Shown one piece after another: positions 4,786 to 44,523 of a stretch of 64,000 nucleotides of DNA (positions are counted from its first letter, which is position 1; each line of letters starts with the position of its first letter). The notes under the pieces are model-generated. The model ran no database searches and was not told the origin of the DNA. It saw only the letters and a list, made by a program, of their open reading frames with translations. This stretch comes from Psychrobacter sp. UBA3480 (lineage in GTDB: Bacteria; Pseudomonadota; Gammaproteobacteria; Pseudomonadales; Moraxellaceae), in assembly GCF_002377945.1 (NCBI RefSeq), contig NZ_DFQV01000033.1, positions 160,539-224,538 of the forward strand, given 5' to 3'. Made by a program: the position numbers and the translations under genes.

Positions 4786-6093
4786 ATGCTTGCATTTGCT
4801 ATTTTTGTGGTTACTTTAGTCTTAGTTATTTGGCAACCTAAAGGATTGGGTATCGGTTGGAGCGCCATGGGTGGTGCTTTAGTCGCGTTAGCGCTTGGCG
4901 TCGTGCAGTTATCAGATGTGGGTATCGTCTGGGATATTGTCTGGGATGCGACCTTTACTTTTGTAGCGTTGATTATTATCTCGCTTATCTTAGATCGGGC
5001 AGGGTTTTTTGGCTGGGCGGCATTGCACGTGGCACGCCTTGGCAATGGACAAGGGCGCTTATTGTTTCCGATGATTGTCGTGCTCGGCGCCTTTATTTCT
5101 GCCTTTTTTGCCAATGATGGTGCAGCGCTACTACTGACTCCGATCGTCATCGCTATCTTGCTACGTCTCAAATTTTCGCCACCATCAGCGCTGGCATTTA
5201 TCATAGCGACTGGTTTTATTGCTGATACGGCAAGTCTGCCATTGGTCACCTCAAATTTAGTCAATATCGTCAGTGCCAATTATTTTGATATTGGTTTCGG
5301 TCGTTATGCGGCGGTGATGGTGCCAGTCAATATCGTGTCTGTATTAGCGACGCTACTGGTATTGTGGGTTGTCTATGCACGTCATATTCCAAAAACCTAC
5401 TCGACTAGCGAGCTAAGCGCTCCAGAGTCTGCTATTACCGATCCATTGGTATTCCGAGCTGCTTTTCCACTATTAGGTTTGCTACTGGTCGCCTATTTTG
5501 CGACTGAGCCGTTGGGGCTACCTATTTCACTGGTCACGGGCATCGCTGCTGTCGCGTTAATGGCAATCGCTGGCCGCATATGGCAAGGTGGGCACGGTGC
5601 GGTAGTCTCTGTGAGCGATGTAGTACGTAAAGCGCCTTGGCAAATCGTACTATTTTCAATCGGTATGTATTTGGTGGTATATGGTCTGGGTAATGCAGGG
5701 CTTACTGCTTATGGTGCGCAAGTACTTAACTGGTTGGGTCAACAAGGCGCAGTCATTGCTACCGTTGGAACTGGATTCTTGTCCGCCATAGTTGCTTCTG
5801 TTATGAATAATATGCCAGCAACTTTAGTCGGCGCGCTTGCGATTGATCAAGCACAAGTGCCTGCTGCAACGCGAGAGCTAATGATTTATGCTAATGTCAT
5901 CGGTAATGATTTGGGCCCTAAGTTTACGCCGATTGGTAGTCTGGCTACTTTACTATGGCTACATGTATTAGCAGAGAAGGACTACAAAATCAGCTGGGGA
6001 CAGTATATGAAGATTGGTCTATTGATCACTCCGCCTGTGTTGTTAGTGACACTGTTGGCATTGGTATTCTGGTTGCCACTGTTGCCAAGCTAG
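4786..6093 (+). CDS. arsB: ArsB-type arsenite efflux permease
   Basis: A 435-residue hydrophobic inner-membrane protein with about 12 predicted spans. It belongs to the ArsB branch of the ion transporter superfamily: note the conserved [20 protein letters not shown] near 106-125, [18 protein letters not shown] and the late [20 protein letters not shown]. It exports As(III)/Sb(III) in exchange for protons, with or without an ArsA ATPase; no arsA is present here. AAGG lies 9 bp before the ATG. It is the last gene of the operon and is followed by a MITE-like element and a terminator. Confidence 0.94.
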
Positions 6094-33278: not shown

Positions 33279-34475
33279 ATGACGAAATTTTTACCGAAAA
33301 AGACACTACTATTGGCAGGCGCAGGTCATGCTCACATTGGCATGTTACGCCGACTTAGCGCAGCGCGTTTAAAGGATGCCGATATGATAGAGGCAGACAT
33401 TCACTTAATTAGTGAGCAACCGCAAACCATCTATTCTGGCATGTTACCAGGTTGGATGGCAGGGCATTATCAGCTGCATGATATCAGTATCGATATCAAA
33501 TCGCTTTGTGTGCGAGCAGGCGTGCGCTTTATTCAGCAGTCGCTTGTAAAAGTAAATGCAGCGTCAAACAAGGTGGTTACGACTGGCGATGAACAAACGG
33601 ATTTTGACTACGATGTCTTGTCTTTAAATACTGGCGCAGATACAGATATGCGTTGGCTACCTGACCAAAATAGCTACAACGAGCACAGAAGCGACAGTAA
33701 CGATAACAATACTGGCGCTACCGATAATGATACTGACGTGATTGCCATACGACCGTTATCAGCATTTATCATTCAATGGCAGCGGATTCTAAAGGCCGCT
33801 CAGCAGTCTGAAAAGTATCAATTGGCTATTATCGGGGCAGGTGCTGCGGCAATAGAATTGGTGATGGCAGCCAAAGTCGCGCTAAGGAATATCAATCGTA
33901 ATCATCAAGTGACATTAGTATGTGGTGAGAATCTATTGTCAGGGTTTAATTCGGGCTTTCGACAGCGGGTTATCAAGCAGCTAGATCGACATGACATTAC
34001 GATAGTTCGAGAACGAGCGACCGATTATCGTGACGGTAAATTATCAACTACGCATAAATCATTGCCCATAAATGCGGTCATCGCTGCGACTGGCGTTATA
34101 GGGTCGGCATGGACGGCTTCTACAGATTTAGAAATAGAAGGTGATGGGTTTGTCGCGGTAAACGATAAGCAACAGAGCGTTTCTCATTCCAATGTATTTG
34201 CCGTTGGTGATGTGGCGACACGAATCGATAAATACGTGGCGCACTCGGGGGTTCACTCCGTACATGGTGGTGCTGTCGAAGCCGATAATCTATTGGCCTA
34301 TCTACAAGAGAGCGTAATGAAGAGCTATCAGCCAAAGTCACGCACGCTATACCTGCTATCGTGCGGCGATAAATATGCCATTGGTAGTTGGGGCAACATA
34401 AATCTACAAGGTCGCTGGGTATGGCATCTCAAAAAGTATATTGATAAGCGCTTCATAGAGGCGGATAAGGGTTAA
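33279..34475 (+). CDS. FAD-dependent pyridine nucleotide-disulfide oxidoreductase, SelD-N-terminal-like
   Basis: About 398 residues from ATG 33279 (a TTG at 33264 is also in frame). It begins LLLAGAGHAHIGMLRRLSAA, the modified FAD-binding motif of the NDH-2-like family found fused to SelD (TIGR03169 type); the SelD kinase domain is absent. QPQTIYSGMLPGWMAGHY, the second Rossmann motif AIIGAGAAAIELVMAA and FAVGDVATR are also seen. A polar Asn/Asp-rich insert lies near 137-160. It heads the arsenosugar genes and may reduce or oxidise an arsenical or supply electrons to the pathway. That role is inferred from context only. Confidence 0.8.
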   Translation: MTKFLPKKTLLLAGAGHAHIGMLRRLSAARLKDADMIEADIHLISEQPQTIYSGMLPGWMAGHYQLHDISIDIKSLCVRAGVRFIQQSLVKVNAASNKVVTTGDEQTDFDYDVLSLNTGADTDMRWLPDQNSYNEHRSDSNDNNTGATDNDTDVIAIRPLSAFIIQWQRILKAAQQSEKYQLAIIGAGAAAIELVMAAKVALRNINRNHQVTLVCGENLLSGFNSGFRQRVIKQLDRHDITIVRERATDYRDGKLSTTHKSLPINAVIAATGVIGSAWTASTDLEIEGDGFVAVNDKQQSVSHSNVFAVGDVATRIDKYVAHSGVHSVHGGAVEADNLLAYLQESVMKSYQPKSRTLYLLSCGDKYAIGSWGNINLQGRWVWHLKKYIDKRFIEADKG

Positions 34476-34696
34476 TGCTCATTTGGAATAAACCATAAAA
34501 TCCATCTGATTAGTCATCAATGCGTATTCATAATCAGGTATGATTGATTAGATAAACCGTAAAGTAAGCAATCAGGTTTTACGTTGTAAATATTAAAAAT
34601 AAACAGTAAAAGCAATGCGCTATCTGTGTTTTCTAATCTTTAATTTTACGTTGCTATCCTTTTTTAGTTGTACTGCTAACAGGATTTTAGACCACC

Positions 34697-35689
34697 ATGA
34701 AATCAACAATTGAGTTACTTGAGCATACGGATTTTCCAGCGATAAAACGTCGTCAACTGACCATATTGCAAGTGAATATGGGCTATTTATGCAATATGTC
34801 TTGCGTACATTGTCATGTGGCTGCCAGCCCTTATCGTACCGAGATGATGTCGCGTGAATTGGTCGAGTTGATACCAGAAGTATTGCAAGCACAAAATATC
34901 GATACGCTTGATTTGACGGGCGGTGCGCCTGAGATGCACGAGGATTTTAAGTATTTGGTCAAGGCCGCTCGGGCATTAGGCGTCAAAGTGATAGACCGCT
35001 GTAACCTGACCATTCTTATGGAAGAGGGTTATGAGGATATGGCGCAGTTTTTAGCAGAAAACCAAGTGGAAGTGGTGGCTTCTTTGCCTTGTTATTCCCT
35101 AGAAAATGTAGATAAACAGCGCGGTAAAGGTGCGTTTGATGACAGTATATTAGGATTGCAGAAGCTCAATCAGTTGGGGTACGGCAAGCCTGATTCAAAT
35201 TTAACATTAAACTTGGTCTACAACCCACAAGGTGCGACGCTGCCGCCCAATCAACAGCAGCTTGAAGCAGATTACAAGCGTGAGTTAAAAGCGCACTTTA
35301 ATATTGAGTTTAATCATTTATTTGCCCTAACAAATATGCCGATTCAGCGTTTTGGGGCGGTGCTATTGGCAAAAAACCAGTTCCACCCGTATATGGATTT
35401 GCTCAAAGCTAATTATATGGCTGCTAATTTAGCCGAGGTCATGTGCCGTTCGACCATTAGTGTCAATTGGTTGGGTGAGCTATTTGATTGTGATTTCAAT
35501 CAGCAGTTAGAGATACCTGTCCCCAACAAGTCACGGCAATACCTAAGTGATTTGTTAACGCAAAACCCGTCTGGTGATGATATTGCCATTGCTGACCACT
35601 GCTATGGTTGTACAGCAGGACAGGGCAGTAGCTGTGGCGGCGCGTTAGAAGAAGAGGCAGTAGAGCCAGCGCTAGTAGACACGCCTTAG
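34697..35689 (+). CDS. arsS: Arsenosugar biosynthesis radical SAM protein ArsS
   Basis: A 330-residue radical SAM enzyme. C32, C36 and C39 in CNMSCVHCH bind the 4Fe-4S cluster, and LTGGAPEM is the SAM motif. The C-terminal region carries further Cys: FDCDF, then C302, C305 and C313 in HCYGCTAGQGSSCGG, characteristic of the ArsS family (some members have selenocysteine here; this one has Cys). ArsS joins a 5'-deoxyadenosyl group to dimethylated arsenic to give 5'-deoxy-5'-dimethylarsinoyl-adenosine. It is followed by DUF547 and two glycosyltransferase genes, then arsM. Confidence 0.93.
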   Translation: MKSTIELLEHTDFPAIKRRQLTILQVNMGYLCNMSCVHCHVAASPYRTEMMSRELVELIPEVLQAQNIDTLDLTGGAPEMHEDFKYLVKAARALGVKVIDRCNLTILMEEGYEDMAQFLAENQVEVVASLPCYSLENVDKQRGKGAFDDSILGLQKLNQLGYGKPDSNLTLNLVYNPQGATLPPNQQQLEADYKRELKAHFNIEFNHLFALTNMPIQRFGAVLLAKNQFHPYMDLLKANYMAANLAEVMCRSTISVNWLGELFDCDFNQQLEIPVPNKSRQYLSDLLTQNPSGDDIAIADHCYGCTAGQGSSCGGALEEEAVEPALVDTP

Positions 35690-35781
35690 TAGTTCTAATA
35701 TAAGTACGTTCAATATAAGTACTTTTGGCATAGATAAAAAAACATAAATAAAAAACAATCAGTGTAAACGGAGTAAGCCTT

Positions 35782-36603
35782 ATGTCAGTATTTAACTTTT
35801 CAGCGAAGACATTTTTCGCCCAGCCAGTGATTGCCACGACTATTTTATTAGCAAGTGTGGCCGCTCATGCTGACTTTAACCATCAGAGCTGGGATAGCCT
35901 ATTAAATAAGCATGTGACCATGACCAACGGTGGCAAAGCTTCAGTGGTCAATTATGCTGGCATGAAAGCAGATCAAAGTAAGCTGACAAGCTATCTAGAA
36001 GCGACGAGCAAGGTATCTCAATCAGAGTTCAATCGTTGGAGTAAAAACGAGCAGTTGGCATTTTTAATCAACGTTTATAACGCTGGTACGGTTGATTTGG
36101 TATTGACGAAATATCCAAACGTCAAATCTATCAAAGATATCGGCGGACTGTTTGGGTCACCATGGAAGCAAGAGTTTGTTTCGCTACTTGGTAAGACGCG
36201 CTCACTTGATGATATCGAGCACAATCTGATTCGTGGTTCTAAACGCTACAACGATCCGCGTATTCACTTTGCGGTCAATTGTGCCAGTATCGGTTGCCCT
36301 GCATTGCAAGATGATGCCTTTACTGGCAAGCGTTTAGACAGTCAATTAGAGCAGGCAACGTCTAAATTTTTAGCAGACAGTAGCCGTAACAGTCTCAAAG
36401 GCGATACGTTAAGAGTGTCACCGATTTTTAAATGGTATAAAGAAGACTTTGCAACCAACTGGCGCGGCACAAAAGATTTGGCAGGGTTTTTGGGTCGTTA
36501 TAGCTCGTCATTAGGATTGAGTAAAGCTCAGACAGCGGATCTCAAACAAGGCAAGATAAAAATAAGCTATACCGATTATAACTGGAATTTGAATAAGAAA
36601 TAA
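35782..36603 (+). CDS. DUF547 domain protein, secreted
   Basis: A 273-residue protein with a Sec signal peptide (hydrophobic core VIATTILLASVA, cleavage likely after AHA near residue 29). DUF547 spans about 60-200; it includes FLINVYNAGTVDLVL and HFAVNCASIGCPALQDDAF with two Cys. DUF547 genes are recurrent partners of arsS, yet no activity has been assigned; a periplasmic location is inferred. It lies 92 bp after arsS and 30 bp before the first glycosyltransferase, so is probably in one operon with them. Confidence 0.88.
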   Translation: MSVFNFSAKTFFAQPVIATTILLASVAAHADFNHQSWDSLLNKHVTMTNGGKASVVNYAGMKADQSKLTSYLEATSKVSQSEFNRWSKNEQLAFLINVYNAGTVDLVLTKYPNVKSIKDIGGLFGSPWKQEFVSLLGKTRSLDDIEHNLIRGSKRYNDPRIHFAVNCASIGCPALQDDAFTGKRLDSQLEQATSKFLADSSRNSLKGDTLRVSPIFKWYKEDFATNWRGTKDLAGFLGRYSSSLGLSKAQTADLKQGKIKISYTDYNWNLNKK

Positions 36604-36633
36604 GCCAGTTTTTAATCTTAATCGCTGATTCAT

Positions 36634-37356
36634 GTGACGGTATATCCATTGAACCTATCAATTATTGTTCCATTATTAAATGAAGCGGACAACTTGCCTG
36701 AGCTTATGGCTCATATTGTCCGTCTCGATCCAGCACCGCAGCAAGTGATATTGGTCGATGGTGGTTCAGTGGATGGTTCGGTTGCTATCGCCAAAAGTGT
36801 GCTCGAAAGTATAGAGATTGCTCAATCAATCATTGATTGGCATATTATCGAATCTACCGTAGGACGCGCTCAGCAAATGAATGCGGGCGCTATATTAGCA
36901 ACAGGTGACGTGCTGCTATTTTTACATGCTGATACCGAGCTGCCTGCTGACGCGATAAATAACGTTCAACAAGCAATAGTTCAGTATGACTGGGGACGAT
37001 TCGATGTGCGCTTAGACAGCTGTGAGCCATTGTTAAAAATCGTCGGGTTCATGATAAATCAGCGCTCACGCTTAATGAGTATCGCCACTGGCGATCAAGC
37101 AATTTTTATCAAAAAATCCATATTCGAGCAGATTGGTGGCTATCCTGATCAGCCATTGATGGAAGATATCGAACTGTGTAAGCGGCTCAAGCGAATTGCT
37201 CGACCAGCTTGTCTAAAAAGTAAAGTCACGACTTCAGCGCGGCGTTGGCAGCAGCATGGCACGTGGCGGACGATTTTTTTGATGTGGCATTTGCGCTTTG
37301 ATTATTGGCGCAGAGTATCGCCTGACGTTTTAAATCAACGCTACTATAAGCAGTGA
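36634..37356 (+). CDS. Arsenosugar biosynthesis glycosyltransferase, TIGR04283 type
   Basis: A 240-residue GT-A fold family 2 glycosyltransferase. The N-terminus is LSIIVPLLNEADNLPELM. ILVDGGSVDGS binds the nucleotide sugar, LFLHADTELP supplies the metal-binding Asp, and QPLMEDIELCKRLKR is the base region. C-terminal SARRWQQHGTWRTIFLMWHL is typical of the TIGR04283 type, which clusters with arsS. It should act on the arsenoribose intermediate. The start is GTG 36634 (or TTG 36649); the gap to DUF547 is 30 bp. Confidence 0.87.
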   Translation: MTVYPLNLSIIVPLLNEADNLPELMAHIVRLDPAPQQVILVDGGSVDGSVAIAKSVLESIEIAQSIIDWHIIESTVGRAQQMNAGAILATGDVLLFLHADTELPADAINNVQQAIVQYDWGRFDVRLDSCEPLLKIVGFMINQRSRLMSIATGDQAIFIKKSIFEQIGGYPDQPLMEDIELCKRLKRIARPACLKSKVTTSARRWQQHGTWRTIFLMWHLRFDYWRRVSPDVLNQRYYKQ

Positions 37357-37438
37357 GATTGTTTATTTTATAAACATGGTAGGTAAGAGCGAAAACAAAC
37401 TCGTACTGATGCATTTGACCAATTGAGAGACAGTTATA

Positions 37439-38101
37439 GTGACAGATGATTCATCTGCAAGACAGCAAGATACCTGTATCCTTCTTTTTGCAAAATATCC
37501 AGCGCGCAATAAGGCAAAAACCCGCTTACAGCCAGCACTGGGTATAGATGGCGCTGCACGTATGGCAAGGCAACTATTACTGCATAGTATTGATCAGGCC
37601 GTTGATACGGGGTTTTCCGTTGAGTTATGTGTGAGTCCAGCACCAACAGATCCATGCTGGCAGGCGCTTGATTTGCCCAACTCGTTGCGCTGGTCTGCTC
37701 AGGCCGATGGTGATTTGGGTTTGCGTATGTTGATAGCCAGTCAGCAAGCATTGCAACGTTTTAAAAAGGTTGTGTTAATTGGTACGGACTGTCCTAGTCT
37801 TACGTCAGGATGTATTCAGACAGCGGTACAGCAGCTAAATCAACAGGATGTGGTCATGATTCCAGCGACTGATGGTGGTTATGTACTGTTAGGATTTAGA
37901 GAGGTTGATGCAAGCTTGTTTTCGGACATTGTTTGGAGTACGGCTAGTGTGGCCACTGTGACCAAGCAGCATGTGGCGGATTTGGGTTGGACATTGGCAT
38001 TGTTAACACCGTTACATGACATTGATGAGCCTGAAGATCTAGTACATTTGCCGTCAGGCTGGTTAGATTCTCACGTCAATATTAAGGTCGATAATAGCTG
38101 A
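37439..38101 (+). CDS. Arsenosugar biosynthesis glycosyltransferase, TIGR04282/DUF2064 type
   Basis: A 220-residue nucleotidyl/glycosyltransferase-like protein. LLFAKYPARNKAKTRLQPAL is the phosphate-binding N-terminus, VLIGTDCPSLTS holds the metal-binding Asp, and VMIPATDGGYVLLGFRE is the third family motif. With the preceding gene it forms the usual GT pair of arsS clusters; one partner may activate a glyceryl or sugar group that is joined to the arsenoribose. The start is a GTG at 37439. Confidence 0.87.
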   Translation: MTDDSSARQQDTCILLFAKYPARNKAKTRLQPALGIDGAARMARQLLLHSIDQAVDTGFSVELCVSPAPTDPCWQALDLPNSLRWSAQADGDLGLRMLIASQQALQRFKKVVLIGTDCPSLTSGCIQTAVQQLNQQDVVMIPATDGGYVLLGFREVDASLFSDIVWSTASVATVTKQHVADLGWTLALLTPLHDIDEPEDLVHLPSGWLDSHVNIKVDNS

Positions 38102-38167
38102 TAACGCTTCATTGAAAAATGGATTAATAAACTCACCAACGTAGTTGTATATTCTAAGATGATTTAC

Positions 38168-38341
38168 TAGGGCGTGTCCTCAATTCAATCGATAGTTATC
38201 TAAATGGGTTAAAAATGGCTAAATCTTGCCAAACGGCGTCAAATAGCTGACTAATATCTCGATATTATCTGCGCCATTTTCCTTGTTTGACTGCAATTTA
38301 TCTCATTTTTATCACCATTTTTAAAATGAGGACACGCCCTA
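38168..38341. mobile_element. MITE-like 174-bp element inside the arsenosugar cluster
   Basis: TAGGGCGTGTCCTCA at 38168 and its exact complement ending at 38341 form 15-bp terminal inverted repeats; A/T-rich complementarity continues inward. It contains no coding frame. It lies between the second glycosyltransferase gene and arsM. The ends differ from those of the 6225-6494 element apart from the AGGG start, so it is a different family. The mobilising transposase is not in the window. Confidence 0.68.
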
Positions 38342-38381
38342 ATACTTTCAACTGGATGGTACATTCAATAAGGATATTGTT

Positions 38382-39425
38382 ATGCATGACGTCGTACAAA
38401 ATTACTATGGCAAAGAGTTACAGAGTACCGATGATTTAAAGACTTCGGCTTGTTGTGATATCAGCAATATGCCTGAGTGGCTCAAGCCCTTACTCGCAAA
38501 TATTCACGATGAGGTATTGAATCGTTATTACGGCTGTGGTCTGGTATGTCCAGCACTGCTTGAGGGCTGCCGAATTTTAGACTTGGGCAGTGGTTCAGGC
38601 CGAGATGTTTACGCATTGGCGCAACTGGTTGGTGAGAGTGGGCACGTAGTCGGTGTTGATATGACCGATGAGCAGCTAGCCGTTGCCAAACAGCATCAAG
38701 CCTATCATGTCGATAAGTTTGGCTATGATAATGTGACATTTTTACATGGCTATATCGAGAAACTAGATGAACTAGACCTTGAGGCTAATAGCTTTGATAT
38801 TATCGTCTCAAACTGCGTTATCAATTTATCACCAGATAAAGCTGCAGTTATGGCCAGTGTGCAGCGTTTGCTGAAACCTGGTGGGGAGTTTTATTTTTCT
38901 GACGTCTATGCTGATCGCCGTATCCCGCAACACTTAATCGATGATCCCGTTTTATATGGCGAATGTTTGAGCGGTGCATTGTATTGGAAGGATTTTAACC
39001 GTTTGTCACGAGATGCAGGTTTCTTAGACATACGTCTGGTTGAAGATCGCCCACTTGAGATTACAGATCCTGCTTTAGCAGCCAAAATTGGTGATATTCA
39101 GTTTTTCTCTGCGACTTACCGCTTATTTAAAATCGACTCGCTTGAGGATGCTTGCGAAGATCACGGACAAGCGGTGATATATAAAGGAACTATCGAGCAG
39201 TCACCGCATCGGTTTGATTTAGATAAACATCATGCTATCGAAGCTGGTCGGGTATTCCCAGTATGTGGCAATACGTTTAGAATGCTGCAAGAATCGCGCT
39301 TCGCGACGCATTTTGAGTTTATCGGTGATGACAGTCGCCATTACGGTATTTTTGCGGGTTGCGGTGAGCTACTGCCATTTAATCAACCTATGATGCTGGC
39401 ATCTGGTGCAGGTGGTTGTTGTTGA
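38382..39425 (+). CDS. arsM: Arsenite S-adenosylmethionine methyltransferase
   Basis: A 347-residue methyltransferase. The N-terminal DLKTSACCDISNMP gives C24/C25. HDEVLNRYYGCGLVCP and the SAM motif RILDLGSGSGRDVY (about 64-77) follow. C145 (SNCVINLSPDK) and C195 (LYGECLSGALYW) complete the conserved three-Cys As(III) site. It methylates As(III) to mono-, di- and trimethyl arsenic and supplies the dimethyl substrate for ArsS. The protein ends in GAGGCC, an extra Cys pair. AAGGA lies upstream of the ATG, and a MITE-like element separates it from the glycosyltransferase genes. Confidence 0.94.
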   Translation: MHDVVQNYYGKELQSTDDLKTSACCDISNMPEWLKPLLANIHDEVLNRYYGCGLVCPALLEGCRILDLGSGSGRDVYALAQLVGESGHVVGVDMTDEQLAVAKQHQAYHVDKFGYDNVTFLHGYIEKLDELDLEANSFDIIVSNCVINLSPDKAAVMASVQRLLKPGGEFYFSDVYADRRIPQHLIDDPVLYGECLSGALYWKDFNRLSRDAGFLDIRLVEDRPLEITDPALAAKIGDIQFFSATYRLFKIDSLEDACEDHGQAVIYKGTIEQSPHRFDLDKHHAIEAGRVFPVCGNTFRMLQESRFATHFEFIGDDSRHYGIFAGCGELLPFNQPMMLASGAGGCC

Positions 39426-39476: not shown

Positions 39477-39513
39477 AAAAAGGGCCGTTAATTCATATAA
39501 CGGCCCTTTTTTT
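39477..39513. terminator. Bidirectional terminator between arsM and the phosphorylase gene
   Basis: GGGCCGTTA (39482-39490) and TAACGGCCC (39498-39506) pair perfectly with A5 and T7 flanks, between convergent genes. Confidence 0.85.
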
Positions 39514-39587: not shown

Positions 39588-40481
39588 CTAAGGTAGCAAG
39601 GCGGCCAGTCTAATCTTGGTATGCTCGTCCATCGCATCTATAGGCGTGATCAATGCTTGGGCGAGGGCATTGTGAGCGATTGACTCAGGTAGTTCAGCGG
39701 CAATCAAAGCAACAGCTTCTCGTATCACTTTTTGAGCATTGTCCGCATTTTTCATTAGGTTCTGTATAGCATAGTCGGCACTAACGGCTTCTTCCGTCGG
39801 ATGCCAGCAGTCGAAGTCTGTCACCAGAGCTAACGTGGCATAAGCAATACTGGCTTCACGTGCCAATTTGGCTTCTGGCATATTGGTCATGCCAATAATA
39901 TCTGCCTGCATCTGACGATACCATTCTGACTCTGCTCGAGTTGAGAATTGAGGCCCTTCGATGCAGACATAAGTTGCCTTAGAATGACTGCTACCTTCTA
40001 TAATATCTGCTTGTTCATAAGCACGCGTCAAGAGTTCTGCTAGAGCAGGACAAAGCGGGTCAGCCATAGATACATGGGCGACGGCACCCTCACCAAAGAA
40101 GGTACTCACTCTCTGCTTGGTCATATCGATCATTTGATCAGGCACGACCATATCTAATGGCTTAAGATGCGCTTGCAATGAACCAACTGCTGATACGGAT
40201 ACGATATAGCGTACCCCAAGCGTTTTTAGCGCATAGATATTGGCTCGATACGGCACTTCGGACGGGGTCAGTCTATGACCCTGACCATGCCTCGTCAAAA
40301 AAGCAACGGTCACTCCCTCAAGTTCACCTAAGACAATATCATCAGATGGACTGCCATAAGGCGTCTGTATCGTTACACTGCGTTTGTTGGTCAGTGATGA
40401 CATTTGGTAGAGACCGCTGCCACCGATGATAGCAAGATCAGCAGATAACGTTGCCAGTACTTCCGTGTGAGGTATTGTCAT
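39588..40481 (-). CDS. mtnP: S-methyl-5'-thioadenosine phosphorylase-like enzyme (PNP/MTAP family)
   Basis: A 297-residue type I nucleoside phosphorylase. LAIIGGSGLYQM, FLTRHGQGHRLTPSEVPYRANIYAL split by the phosphate-binding RHGQGH, SVSAVGSLQ, CIEGPQFSTRAE and GMTNMPEAKLAREASIAYAT are all present. LVTDFDCWHPTEEAV is the MTAP form (Asp for 6-amino recognition), favouring methylthioadenosine over methylthioinosine. It recycles MTA from polyamine synthesis. The ArsS product is also a 5'-substituted 5'-deoxyadenosine, so its convergent position beside arsM may mean it removes adenine from that intermediate; this is inferred. Confidence 0.88.
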   Translation of the reverse strand: MTIPHTEVLATLSADLAIIGGSGLYQMSSLTNKRSVTIQTPYGSPSDDIVLGELEGVTVAFLTRHGQGHRLTPSEVPYRANIYALKTLGVRYIVSVSAVGSLQAHLKPLDMVVPDQMIDMTKQRVSTFFGEGAVAHVSMADPLCPALAELLTRAYEQADIIEGSSHSKATYVCIEGPQFSTRAESEWYRQMQADIIGMTNMPEAKLAREASIAYATLALVTDFDCWHPTEEAVSADYAIQNLMKNADNAQKVIREAVALIAAELPESIAHNALAQALITPIDAMDEHTKIRLAALLP

Positions 40482-40948
40482 AAGGACTATCCGAGTAGAT
40501 TAATAAAAGAGAGATACAGACTAGCGCCATGTAATATTCTGAACCAAAAAATAGCTCAGATAAAATATAGCAGAACTTTTGTCCTTATAGTTATAAATCG
40601 AGAATTCTTATTAATTTGCTATATCTAAAAATTCCTAAGAAATAATGCGATATGACAATATTTTTTACATATCGATAAAGGTTTACAATAGCAACAAATT
40701 TTGTTTTAATATTTATTAAATGAAACTTTGTTTCGCATAGCAAAACATACGTATATATTAGCTCAATTAATGAATGACATATATTTTCTCTAATAGCTTT
40801 AAATATAAGGTATTGAAAGAAAAAGAGAAAGTAAGCTAAGGTTTATTTGTTGGCGGAATTACTATATTATTACTCGTCTGTAACGTATTTATGTATAAAT
40901 ACGGATATTGTTAAACGTACAAAATCGACCACTTCAAGGATGAATTCA
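40482..40948. other. Intergenic region upstream of the TAXI-TRAP operon
   Basis: 467 bp, strongly AT-rich, between divergent genes. It holds a small palindrome GAAACTTTGTTTC near 40721. An open frame extends upstream of the binding-protein gene, but the signal peptide and ribosome-binding site place the real start at 40949. No RNA gene is seen. Confidence 0.45.
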
Positions 40949-41968
40949 ATGCTTAATTCTTTAAAATCCCCATTACTTTTGTCAGCTATGTTGAGTGCTG
41001 CGCTAGGTCTAACCGCATGCTCATCTCCAAGCTCAGAGGGCAGTGATACTGCATCTGCAGATAGCGCGGCAACAGATACTGCAGCAGATAAGCTTGATAC
41101 TAAGTTTTTGACCATCGCTACTGGCGGTGCGTCTGGCCCTTACAACATCATTGGTACTTCATTGTCTGAAGTCTATGTCAAAACCTTTGGCGTAAACTCA
41201 AAAACTCAAACCACTGGCGCATCAGTCGAAAACGTCAATCTATTGACCCAAGGCAAGGTCGACATGGTCTTGGCACTAAGTGACGTAGTGACAGATGCTG
41301 TCGAAGGTGAAAACAACTTTGAGCAGCCAATCACTAACATTCAACAGATTGCTGTTTTGTACCCTAATGTCGTGCAAATCGTGACCTCGAAAAAATCTGG
41401 TATCAAAAACATTGAAGATTTACGAGGCAAGCGTATTGCGGTAGGTGATCAAGGTTCTGGTACAGAAGTCAATGCTCGTACTTTACTTGAAGGGTTTGGT
41501 ATCACATATGATGATGTCACCGTTGATTATCTAGGCTTTGCTGAAGCTGCTGATGGTATGAAAGCAGGTAAGATCGAAGCGGCATTCTTTAGTAGTGGCC
41601 TACCAAATTCATCTTTGATGGAGTTAGAGCAAGGCTTAGATTTACAGATTGTCACTATCAACCAAGACAAGCTAAAAGAAATCATCGCGACCAAGCCTTA
41701 CTTCAAAACCTTTGAGATTCCTGCTGGCACTTATGGCAACGAAACAGCCGTACCAACTGCTGCAATCATGAATGCATTATTGGTTAGCTCTGATCTATCT
41801 GAAGCGGATGGTTATAAACTAACCAAAGCATTGTTCGATAATTTAGATGGTCTAAAAACAGCTCACCAAGCGGCCAATGATATCAGTCTAGAAACTGCTC
41901 GTGATGGCATGGTAGCCCCAATCCATCCTGGAGCTAAAAAGTACTATGACGAACAAGCAGCCAAGTAA
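40949..41968 (+). CDS. TAXI-family TRAP transporter substrate-binding lipoprotein
   Basis: I start it at ATG 40949 because AAGGA lies 8 bp before and the protein then begins with a proper lipoprotein signal (MLNSLKSPLLLSAM... LTAC, lipid Cys near residue 24). The mature part has the TAXI signature FLTIATGGASGPYNIIGTSL followed by TTGASVENVNLL, and QIVTSKKSGIKNIEDLRGKRI. It captures a substrate in the periplasm for the fused permease downstream. The substrate is unknown; known or suggested ligands for TAXI proteins include glutamate and 2-oxoglutarate. It overlaps the next gene by 23 bp. Confidence 0.9.
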   Translation: MLNSLKSPLLLSAMLSAALGLTACSSPSSEGSDTASADSAATDTAADKLDTKFLTIATGGASGPYNIIGTSLSEVYVKTFGVNSKTQTTGASVENVNLLTQGKVDMVLALSDVVTDAVEGENNFEQPITNIQQIAVLYPNVVQIVTSKKSGIKNIEDLRGKRIAVGDQGSGTEVNARTLLEGFGITYDDVTVDYLGFAEAADGMKAGKIEAAFFSSGLPNSSLMELEQGLDLQIVTINQDKLKEIIATKPYFKTFEIPAGTYGNETAVPTAAIMNALLVSSDLSEADGYKLTKALFDNLDGLKTAHQAANDISLETARDGMVAPIHPGAKKYYDEQAAK

Positions 41969-42509
41969 TTCATTATGGTTATCAACTGGCGCGGCATTTA
42001 TTGCAGCGCTGGTTTTTTTTACGCTATGGTTAGGCTCTACGCTTCAGTCTGTCGTTGAAGTGCGAGTCGCAGGCGTAGACGGTGCTGATGATAAGGTTTG
42101 TTACTTCACTGAGCCTGATTTTCAGCTACGTTGGATACATTCTGTAGAAAAACAGTGGTGGGAAGAGCAGTATCAACGCATAGACGGCAGCAGTACAGCA
42201 GGTGCGGAGCTGTTACTGACCACGACCTATTTTGAAGCGTTCGGTGCAGGGACACCCTCCACCGAAATGCTCGCTCCTATACAAAAGCCTGGCTATCTGG
42301 GTTATCAAATCAACGAAAAACTGCCTCGCCTTAATTGGGTCGTATCTAGACTGACCAAAGGTGAAATGGATTATGGTGGTCATCGTTTCTTGATTCACCA
42401 GTGGGTGCCAGACTATTCTGAAGTGGTGATCATGCCTAAGACGTATGATTTAATTGATAGATTTAAAAAGGACTTTTGTCATGAACTCCCAAGTGACGGA
42501 TCAAGGTAG
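41946..42509 (+). CDS. DUF1850 family protein of the TAXI-TRAP operon
   Basis: A 187-residue protein with one N-terminal membrane span (LSTGAAFIAALVFFTLWLGS). The DUF1850 core follows with FQLRWIHSVEKQWWEEQYQR, TYFEAFGAGTPST and FLIHQWVP, all typical. DUF1850 genes are frequently inserted between TAXI binding proteins and their permeases; the biochemical role is unknown. It overlaps the gene before by 23 bp and the permease after by 29 bp, indicating tight translational coupling. Confidence 0.85.
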   Translation: MTNKQPSNSLWLSTGAAFIAALVFFTLWLGSTLQSVVEVRVAGVDGADDKVCYFTEPDFQLRWIHSVEKQWWEEQYQRIDGSSTAGAELLLTTTYFEAFGAGTPSTEMLAPIQKPGYLGYQINEKLPRLNWVVSRLTKGEMDYGGHRFLIHQWVPDYSEVVIMPKTYDLIDRFKKDFCHELPSDGSR

Positions 42510-44523
42510 TGTGACTACCATGCCAGATGTTCAAGTTGATAACGATGCTGAGGCGGATGCGGTCAATCGAGCAGTATTGGAAAAATATGACCGAGAGTCA
42601 ATCACGCGTCATATCACTCAAGGACCAGTAAAATATTTTATTGCTGGCATTTGTATACTCTATTCACTGTTTCATTTATATATTACTTTTAATCCAATGC
42701 CAGCACTGTTACAGCGCTCTGTACACGTGGGTGTTGGTTTTGCATTGATATTCCTAATTTTTCCAGCCAGCAAAAAAAGCAGTCGCAAGCGAGTGGCATG
42801 GTATGACTGGATTTGGTTTGCCCTGTCTCTATCCGGTATGGGCTATCTCATTTATGAATATCAAGATATCGTGACCTCGCGTGGCGGTATGGCTAATCAG
42901 GTCGATGTGATATTTTCCTTGATTACGGTAGTCTGCGTACTAGAAGGCAGTCGCCGTATCACTGGTTGGATTTTGCCAATCTTGGCCGGCATATTTTTGG
43001 CCTATCCATTTGTCAGTCATTTAGACTTTATGCCTGACAGGCTTTTGACTCGCCCTTATGATATGGGTGATATCTTTGGTCAATTATTCTTAAAAACAGA
43101 AGGTTTGTACTCTGTTGCGATTGGTGCCTCGGTCACGTTTATTTTCCTATTCATTCTCTTTGGCGCGTTCTTAGCACGCTCGGGAATGGGGCAGCTGTTC
43201 AATGATTTGGCACTAGCCATCGCCGGTCATAAAAAAGGCGGCCCTGCAAAAGTAGCGGTTATCTCTAGTGGCTTTATGGGCAGTATCAACGGCTCAGCTT
43301 TATCAAATGTGGTTAGTACAGGTGCCTTTACCATTCCATTGATGAAAAAGGTCGGCTATCACAAAGATTTCGCGGGTGCAGTTGAGGCCAGTGCTTCGGT
43401 TGGCGGACAGATTTTGCCTCCGATTATGGGTGCCAGTGCCTTTATTATGGCTGAAACAACAGGCTTGCCGTATAGTACGATTGCCTTAGCAGCATTATTG
43501 CCAGCAATACTATACTATTTAGGCGTCATTGCGCAGGTGCATTTCCGCGCTGGACGTCGCGATCTAAAAGGTATTGCTAAAGAAAATTTACCAGCGGTCA
43601 AAGAGGTATTGAAAGCCCGCGGTCATATGCTATTGCCGATTGTCTTCTTGATTTTCTTATTAATCAGAAACGTACCTGTGGGATATGCAGCAGCTTATAC
43701 CATTGGCTTTACCGTTGTGATCAGTATGCTACGTGCCGAAACGCGCATGAGCTTTTCTGATATTTTGGGTGCATTAGAAGATGGTGCGCGCCAGTCATTA
43801 GCGGTCATGGCTGCTTGTGCGGTCGTTGGTATTATCATTGGGGTTGTGAGTCTGACCAGTTTTGGTACGGTGATGACATCCTCTATCGTTACATTAGGCG
43901 CAGGATCGCTATTCTTTACCCTTATCTTAACGATGTTGGCATCAATGGTTTTGGGCATGGGGCTACCATCTATTCCTGCCTATATCATTACGGCGACGAT
44001 GGCTGCACCAGCATTGGCCGGTTTTGATATTCCAATCTTGTCAGCGCACATGTTTGTTTTCTATTTTGGTATCTTTGCCAATATTACACCGCCTGTGTGT
44101 CTTGCAGCCTTTGCGGGTGCAGGTATATCCGGTGGAGATCCGATGAAAACAGGGTTCTTGTCCCTCAAGCTTGCCCTCGCAGGATTCATCGTGCCGTTTA
44201 TGTTTATCTATAATCCAACGATGTTGATGATAGATCCAACCGGTTTAGCAGTTACGGCAAAAGATTTCCCGCTGCCACCTATTGTAGATATCATTACAGT
44301 GGTAGTGACTTCGGTGACGGGTGTCATTGCGCTGAGCTCAGCACTTGAAGGCTACTTCAGAGGCGGTATGAATACGGTAACTCGTGTCATCTTAGCTATT
44401 GGTGCTTTACTATTGATTTATCCTGAGATTACGACTGGTATTGCAGGTGGTATTATTGTCCTTGGTATTGCTGCATTCAATATAAAAACAGCTGGAAAGC
44501 CAACGCCAACTTTAACCGTGTAA
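42481..44523 (+). CDS. TRAP transporter permease, fused 4TM/12TM type
   Basis: About 680 residues from ATG 42481, which has AAAAGGA upstream; an in-frame TTG at 42454 is less likely. It fuses the small and large TRAP membrane subunits, giving about 16-18 spans. FLARSGMGQLFNDLALAIAG, ISSGFMGSINGSALSNVVST, GGQILPPIMGASAFIMAE and LGMGLPSIPAYIITATMAAP are family motifs. It drives Na+- or H+-coupled uptake of the substrate captured by the TAXI lipoprotein. A terminator follows at 44562. Confidence 0.94.
   Translation: MNSQVTDQGSVTTMPDVQVDNDAEADAVNRAVLEKYDRESITRHITQGPVKYFIAGICILYSLFHLYITFNPMPALLQRSVHVGVGFALIFLIFPASKKSSRKRVAWYDWIWFALSLSGMGYLIYEYQDIVTSRGGMANQVDVIFSLITVVCVLEGSRRITGWILPILAGIFLAYPFVSHLDFMPDRLLTRPYDMGDIFGQLFLKTEGLYSVAIGASVTFIFLFILFGAFLARSGMGQLFNDLALAIAGHKKGGPAKVAVISSGFMGSINGSALSNVVSTGAFTIPLMKKVGYHKDFAGAVEASASVGGQILPPIMGASAFIMAETTGLPYSTIALAALLPAILYYLGVIAQVHFRAGRRDLKGIAKENLPAVKEVLKARGHMLLPIVFLIFLLIRNVPVGYAAAYTIGFTVVISMLRAETRMSFSDILGALEDGARQSLAVMAACAVVGIIIGVVSLTSFGTVMTSSIVTLGAGSLFFTLILTMLASMVLGMGLPSIPAYIITATMAAPALAGFDIPILSAHMFVFYFGIFANITPPVCLAAFAGAGISGGDPMKTGFLSLKLALAGFIVPFMFIYNPTMLMIDPTGLAVTAKDFPLPPIVDIITVVVTSVTGVIALSSALEGYFRGGMNTVTRVILAIGALLLIYPEITTGIAGGIIVLGIAAFNIKTAGKPTPTLTV

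Follow-up and report, generated by a model that had tools for sequence, protein, structure and literature searches.

An arsS gene cluster of Psychrobacter with a linked MTA phosphorylase family gene that may take part in arsenosugar biosynthesis

We analyzed a stretch of 64,000 nucleotides (the window) from a 3.49-Mb genome whose nearest named relatives, judging from an ArsS identity of 98%, are Psychrobacter, and found a gene cluster that belongs among the arsS clusters. The gene content and protein motifs make an arsenosugar cluster based on ArsM and ArsS well supported here. New features are a neighboring phosphorylase gene (PNP) and the inferred sugar-nucleotide route to which it points. 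Arsenosugars are major arsenic forms in marine food chains, and to our knowledge the steps after ArsS have no assigned enzymes. The features of the locus are as follows.

33279..34475, plus strand: Pyr_redox_2 flavoprotein resembling the part that precedes SelD in fusion proteins, from profile searches
34697..35689, plus strand: arsS, radical SAM DDMAA synthase (TIGR04167; C32, C36, and C39)
35782..36603, plus strand: DUF547 protein (PF04784), probably exported
36634..37356, plus strand: GT2, glycosyltransferase of family 2 (TIGR04283), candidate for attachment of the arsenoribosyl unit
37439..38101, plus strand: TIGR04282/DUF2064 protein, proposed CofC/FbiD-type nucleotidyltransferase, from profile and fold
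38170..38339, no strand: MITE-like inverted-repeat element of 170 bases, TA-flanked, between DUF2064 and arsM
38382..39425, plus strand: arsM, arsenite methyltransferase (match to 5EVJ, three Cys aligned)
39477..39513, no strand: terminator-like hairpin with an A-run and a T-run, identified by eye, between the converging arsM and PNP
39588..40481, minus strand: PNP, MTA phosphorylase family (TIGR01694, co-occurrence with arsS, Asp222/Asp224)

The open reading frames agreed with a preliminary description of six co-directional genes in this order, and the intergenic gaps were 221, 92, 30, 82, and 280 bases. The comparison of gene order across arsS loci that had been proposed there was run, and the order arsS, GT2, DUF2064 was constant in all 42 Psychrobacter loci compared, so the cluster is not a chance pattern. 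The MITE-like element has perfect 13-base ends, with 16 matches to one end genome-wide, its own copy counted; at the same site it was found in loci L009 and L061 and was not found in L003 and seven others. PNP converges on arsM beyond the hairpin and, being on the opposite strand with this terminator-like structure in between, probably lies outside the operon.

The identity of ArsS held: the protein scored 468.2 bits with TIGR04167 (cut-off, 300), and both the CX3CX2C motif (C32, C36, and C39) and the C-terminal block CYGCTAGQGSSCGG were present in the translation. ArsM, described earlier as having three conserved cysteines, matched 5EVJ, a solved arsenite methyltransferase, with 348.7 bits, and its C52, C145, and C195 aligned with cysteines there. 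It scored below the NCBIfam ArsM cut-offs and is not filed under the arsenosugar ArsM model NF038099, since it reached 103.3 bits against a cut-off of 400. The arsenosugar pathway of Synechocystis PCC 6803 also has an ArsM and ArsS pair (PMC8552651), and the adenosylation of arsenic is treated in PMC12159101. The likeness to the Synechocystis pathway lies in ArsM and the radical SAM protein ArsS as the opening steps; the Psychrobacter locus would differ in that arsS is linked with PNP, the CofC-like DUF2064 protein, GT2, and DUF547.

PNP is a protein of 297 residues that scored 326.7 bits with TIGR01694 (cut-off, 274.85). Its residues 221 to 226 read TDFDCW and include Asp222 and Asp224, a pair that we take to be the adenine-side residues of the MTA phosphorylase family. 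The Asp form of this motif marks adenine substrates and the Asn form hypoxanthine. The ArsS product, DDMAA, carries adenine. The pattern TD[FYW]D[CS]W was found in all 25 PNP rows taken from arsS loci; among the 29 best-scoring gammaproteobacterial homologues, the exact pattern occurred in 3 and the Asp pair in 4, and Asn replaced the first Asp in the remaining 25. A close relative with solved structures is RSFP (4GLF/4GLJ), which is MTAP-like and came from a library of Antarctic soil; it has likewise 297 residues, Asp222, and Asp224 and gave a 546-bit match to PNP. Its structures place rhodamine B in a pocket corresponding to the MTAP active site (PMC3561333); RSFP was there studied for rhodamine B binding, with enzymatic work deferred to a later study. 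The cluster had been called complete, with every candidate gene, and this is not supported, since the probable adenine-removing PNP next door was missed and a TVP38/flavin-reductase fusion is absent from the genes of this cluster.

We surveyed 100 Psychrobacter genomes, in which arsS was strong in 55 and absent from 45. PNP was found in 55/55 arsS-bearing genomes versus 4/45 arsS-less ones (G002, G080, G094, and G037, the last with a fragment of 72 residues), and in 54 of the 55 the two genes shared one contig, where 2.4 to 7.8 kb separated their start coordinates. Fisher's test gave 7e-24 for this co-occurrence, a value inflated by the relatedness of the genomes and not a true probability. 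PNP might instead be a salvage enzyme that only disposes of methylthioadenosine or 5'-deoxyadenosine, a by-product of abortive radical SAM turnover, and hence travel with arsS; the arsenoribose would then be released by a different enzyme or by slow hydrolysis. Its score over the MTAP cut-off, its probable separate transcription unit, and its retention in three arsS-less genomes fit this idea; however, the search returned no PNP in 41/45 arsS-less Psychrobacter genomes, so the genus seems not to need PNP for general salvage, and the adjacent GT2 and CofC-like protein would suit a pathway that uses a sugar phosphate. We consider salvage unlikely, though the strongest of the alternatives.

Across the 42 Psychrobacter arsS loci, GT2 and DUF2064 were present in all, PNP in 41 (in the other one, the contig ends before the PNP position), and arsM in 26; thus, the first three accompany arsS constantly, unlike arsM. 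Protein and NF008823 profile searches recovered no recognizable ArsM copy in 22 of the 55 arsS-bearing genomes, and hence the earlier inference of arsenite conversion by the set does not hold generally. Outside the genus, we used 38 loci among the best 80 of 268 arsS loci, 12 of the 38 being under 15 kb. These 38 had GT2 (23 loci), DUF2064 (23), the TVP38/flavin-reductase fusion (23), PNP (19, within about 10 kb of arsS), the flavoprotein (17), DUF547 (14), a metallophosphatase (12), and arsM (7). Of the 26 loci that measure 15 kb or more, 17 had PNP, versus about 0.12 expected at random if PNP-type genes (82/115 genomes) are scattered over 3 Mb. Relative to arsS, PNP was downstream and convergent, upstream and divergent, or in the same orientation before or after it, and in 9 of the 12 loci with the metallophosphatase this gene stood immediately before PNP on the same strand. 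In a PNP tree (bootstrap not fully settled), the arsS-linked members split into a gammaproteobacterial clade and a mainly betaproteobacterial clade, between which other homologues fell; this arrangement points to repeated recruitment of PNP to arsS.

A wider draw of 397 Pseudomonadota genomes contained 84 with ArsS over the cut-off, and 83 arsS neighborhoods were read, the window's own excluded and some shortened by contig ends. These contained arsM (25), the TVP38 fusion (14), DUF2064 (13), GT2 (11), DUF547 (3), and the flavoprotein (2), and PNP in only 3, one of which (L167) is from the organism of L049, already among the 38. The PNP linkage is thus confined to some gamma- and betaproteobacteria; in other lineages, the step must be handled in a different way or by genes located elsewhere.

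The preliminary description had named TIGR04283-type and TIGR04282-type glycosyltransferases. Both profiles were over their cut-offs (265.4 bits against 182 for GT2 and 196 against 134 for DUF2064), but the TIGR04282 fold is guanylyltransferase-like: in a structural model of DUF2064, the nearest solved folds of known function were nucleotidyltransferases, namely CofC/FbiD-type guanylyltransferases (7P97, 2I5E, and 6BWG/6BWH). The likeness to these enzymes is in the modeled fold; the difference is that DUF2064 reached 45.1 bits against a cut-off of 105 with the F420 CofC profile TIGR03552, which makes it a relative, not a member. Judging from this model, nucleotidyltransferase is a better assignment for the gene than glycosyltransferase. 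The NCBIfam arsenosugar set TIGR04167, TIGR04282, and TIGR04283 is represented here in full over cut-offs, whereas the matched "arsenosugar"-named models include no phosphorylase, and TIGR04282 carries the name of a glycosyltransferase. One could accordingly hold, with NCBIfam, that TIGR04283 and TIGR04282 are both glycosyltransferases, that six genes suffice, and that PNP, on the other strand, is an unrelated neighbor; set against the co-occurrence of PNP with arsS, their repeated and variously arranged linkage, and the DUF2064 fold, this seems very improbable.

TIGR04283 was found in 82 of the 84 arsS genomes (78 over the cut-off) and, over the cut-off, in 44 sampled genomes without over-cut-off ArsS. 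In 20 of these 44 that were read, DUF2064 stood beside GT2 in 18, while 5 had the flavoprotein, 4 the TVP38 fusion, and 1 PNP, which indicates a wider use of the GT2/DUF2064 pair. An alphaproteobacterial locus (L259) has PNP-DUF2064-GT2 alongside a different radical SAM protein. Besides, three Psychrobacter genomes (G080, G094, and G002) lack arsS but still carry GT2, DUF2064, PNP, DUF547, and the TVP38 fusion where the cluster normally lies; both flanks of this position were seen for G080 and G094 and one for G002. G080 and G094 also kept arsM and the flavoprotein; G002 has no arsM, and its flavoprotein position is beyond the stretch read. The remaining genes were open, the lone stop of each flavoprotein match being its end. 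Omega values of 0.05 to 0.13 (L228 versus L229) and 0.09 to 0.26 (L229 versus L230) show purifying selection on these genes, as estimated over the pairs compared, the timing relative to arsS loss not being datable from omega.

These data could mean that GT2, DUF2064, PNP, and DUF547 form a module for another glycoconjugate to which arsM and arsS were added in some lineages, the arsenic product being a branch and not the main purpose. The 44 genomes, the L259 arrangement, and the constrained arsS-less clusters (omega, 0.05 to 0.26) speak for it. We nevertheless hold it to be rather improbable, because GT2 accompanies nearly every ArsS in the sample and because G080 retains a piece resembling the ArsS C terminus, ADHCYGGTARYKSSCGD, so that the loss of arsS there is a derived state.

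The flavoprotein and DUF547 may be helpers. The first protein had been described as a SelD-like flavoprotein: it is of the flavoprotein kind fused ahead of SelD, with 282.3 bits to TIGR03169 (cut-off, 310) over the part that precedes SelD, but the domain search gave Pyr_redox_2 only and no SelD domain. It was present in 24 of the 42 Psychrobacter loci, and, as a guess, it might keep arsenic or ArsS reduced. The assignment of the third protein to DUF547 was borne out (PF04784, 96 bits against 27). By eye its N terminus resembles a signal peptide, and the protein is probably exported; E146, H162, C167, and C172 were among the invariant positions across 24 relatives, and the gene was present in 38 of the 42 loci. 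A homologue of the TVP38/flavin-reductase fusion (61%) lies about 200 kb off in the same genome (G000:C23:397064-399208), and of the 26 loci from outside Psychrobacter that span 15 kb or more, 20 contain the fusion.

The best reading of the pathway is the order ArsM, ArsS, PNP, nucleotidyl activation, and glycosyl transfer. ArsM would methylate arsenite to dimethylarsenite, and ArsS would join this to the 5'-deoxyadenosyl group of SAM to give DDMAA, as published for other organisms for both steps. PNP may then convert DDMAA and phosphate to adenine and 5-deoxy-5-dimethylarsinoyl-ribose-1-phosphate, DUF2064 may couple this arsenoribose-1-phosphate to a nucleotide, and GT2 may transfer the arsenoribosyl unit to an acceptor, e.g., glycerol or a glycerolipid. 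We give even chances to arsS, PNP, DUF2064, and GT2 being the working unit in Psychrobacter and to arsM, DUF547, and the flavoprotein having auxiliary roles, and regard the sugar-nucleotide route from PNP through NDP-arsenoribose to GT2 as tentative, at somewhat less than even. A literature search returned no metabolite with arsenic on a nucleotide-activated sugar. Observations that run against the proposed pathway are the 3/83 Pseudomonadota loci with PNP near arsS, the opposite strand of PNP behind a hairpin, and the inflated co-occurrence value, together with the three constrained arsS-less clusters, the 44 genomes with GT2 lacking over-cut-off ArsS, and the 22 arsS genomes without a recognizable ArsM.

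The reaction logic of ArsS and PNP resembles that of hopanoid side chain synthesis, in which, according to PMC12583986, deoxyadenosyl is added by the radical SAM protein HpnH before a putative phosphorylase, HpnG, takes off the adenine; the bond formed is carbon-carbon to a lipid in hopanoids versus carbon-arsenic for ArsS. The NCBIfam label "arsenosugar biosynthesis glycosyltransferase" calls for caution, as 44 of the 122 sampled genomes on which it falls were without over-cut-off ArsS. The cluster gives a candidate enzyme for each step after ArsS, a solved structure close to one of these candidates exists, and the question is thereby reduced to ordinary enzyme assays and single-gene deletions. 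If the sugar-nucleotide route is true, arsenic would be carried on a nucleotide-activated sugar.

The arsM gene of the window is set apart from the upstream cluster genes by a MITE-like element, whose inverted ends are perfect over 13 bases (GGGCGTGTCCTCA) and which has TA on its flanks. One end of this element gave 16 matches in the genome when up to 2 mismatches were allowed, the window copy included. Beyond the cluster, transporter genes come after the MTA-phosphorylase-family gene (PNP), and a TVP38/flavin-reductase fusion gene lies about 200 kb away from arsS in the same genome (G000).

38170-38339 (window), MITE-like element of 170 bases with inverted ends and flanking TA
40847-44523 (window), TAXI-TRAP transporter genes, named by eye
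G000:C23:397064-399208, TVP38/flavin-reductase fusion, 61% identical to the fusion inside an Acinetobacter arsS cluster

The TAXI-TRAP genes of two loci, L013 and L014, are on the opposite side of the cluster compared with the window. Recognizable ArsM was not found genome-wide in 22 Psychrobacter genomes with arsS and PNP (G008, G011, G019, and 19 others). Besides, we observed arsS-less Psychrobacter clusters in loci L228 (genome G080; 4860-5235), L229, and L230, and a vestige of the C-terminal motif of ArsS survives in L228.

Outside Psychrobacter, 38 loci were among the best 80 of the 268 arsS loci found, and PhnD- and PhnE-like transport genes occurred in 14 and 13 of them, respectively. 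A metallophosphatase gene was present in 12 of the 38, directly ahead of PNP in 9; the loci that carry these PhnD/PhnE-like and metallophosphatase genes (L051, L052, L055, L058, L059, L070, and others) are for the most part betaproteobacterial. We also noted that a plasmid of Acinetobacter portensis, with NDM-1 in the name of its record, carries an arsS cluster. Locus L079 is filed as Akkermansia muciniphila, probably through a binning error, because its PNP is very near that of Limnohabitans in the tree (end branches of 0.022 each).

L043, 10001-18400, A. portensis plasmid: arsS, TVP38 fusion, DUF547, GT2, DUF2064, ArsM, PNP
L259, 3217 to past 8506, alphaproteobacterial: PNP, DUF2064, GT2, flavoprotein, TVP38 fusion, radical SAM protein

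The radical SAM protein of L259 was rejected as ArsS, since it scored 55 bits to TIGR04167, under the cut-off of 300 bits; its score to the Rv1681 family, 89 bits, was also under cut-off. Perhaps the L259 cluster makes a different adenosylated product.
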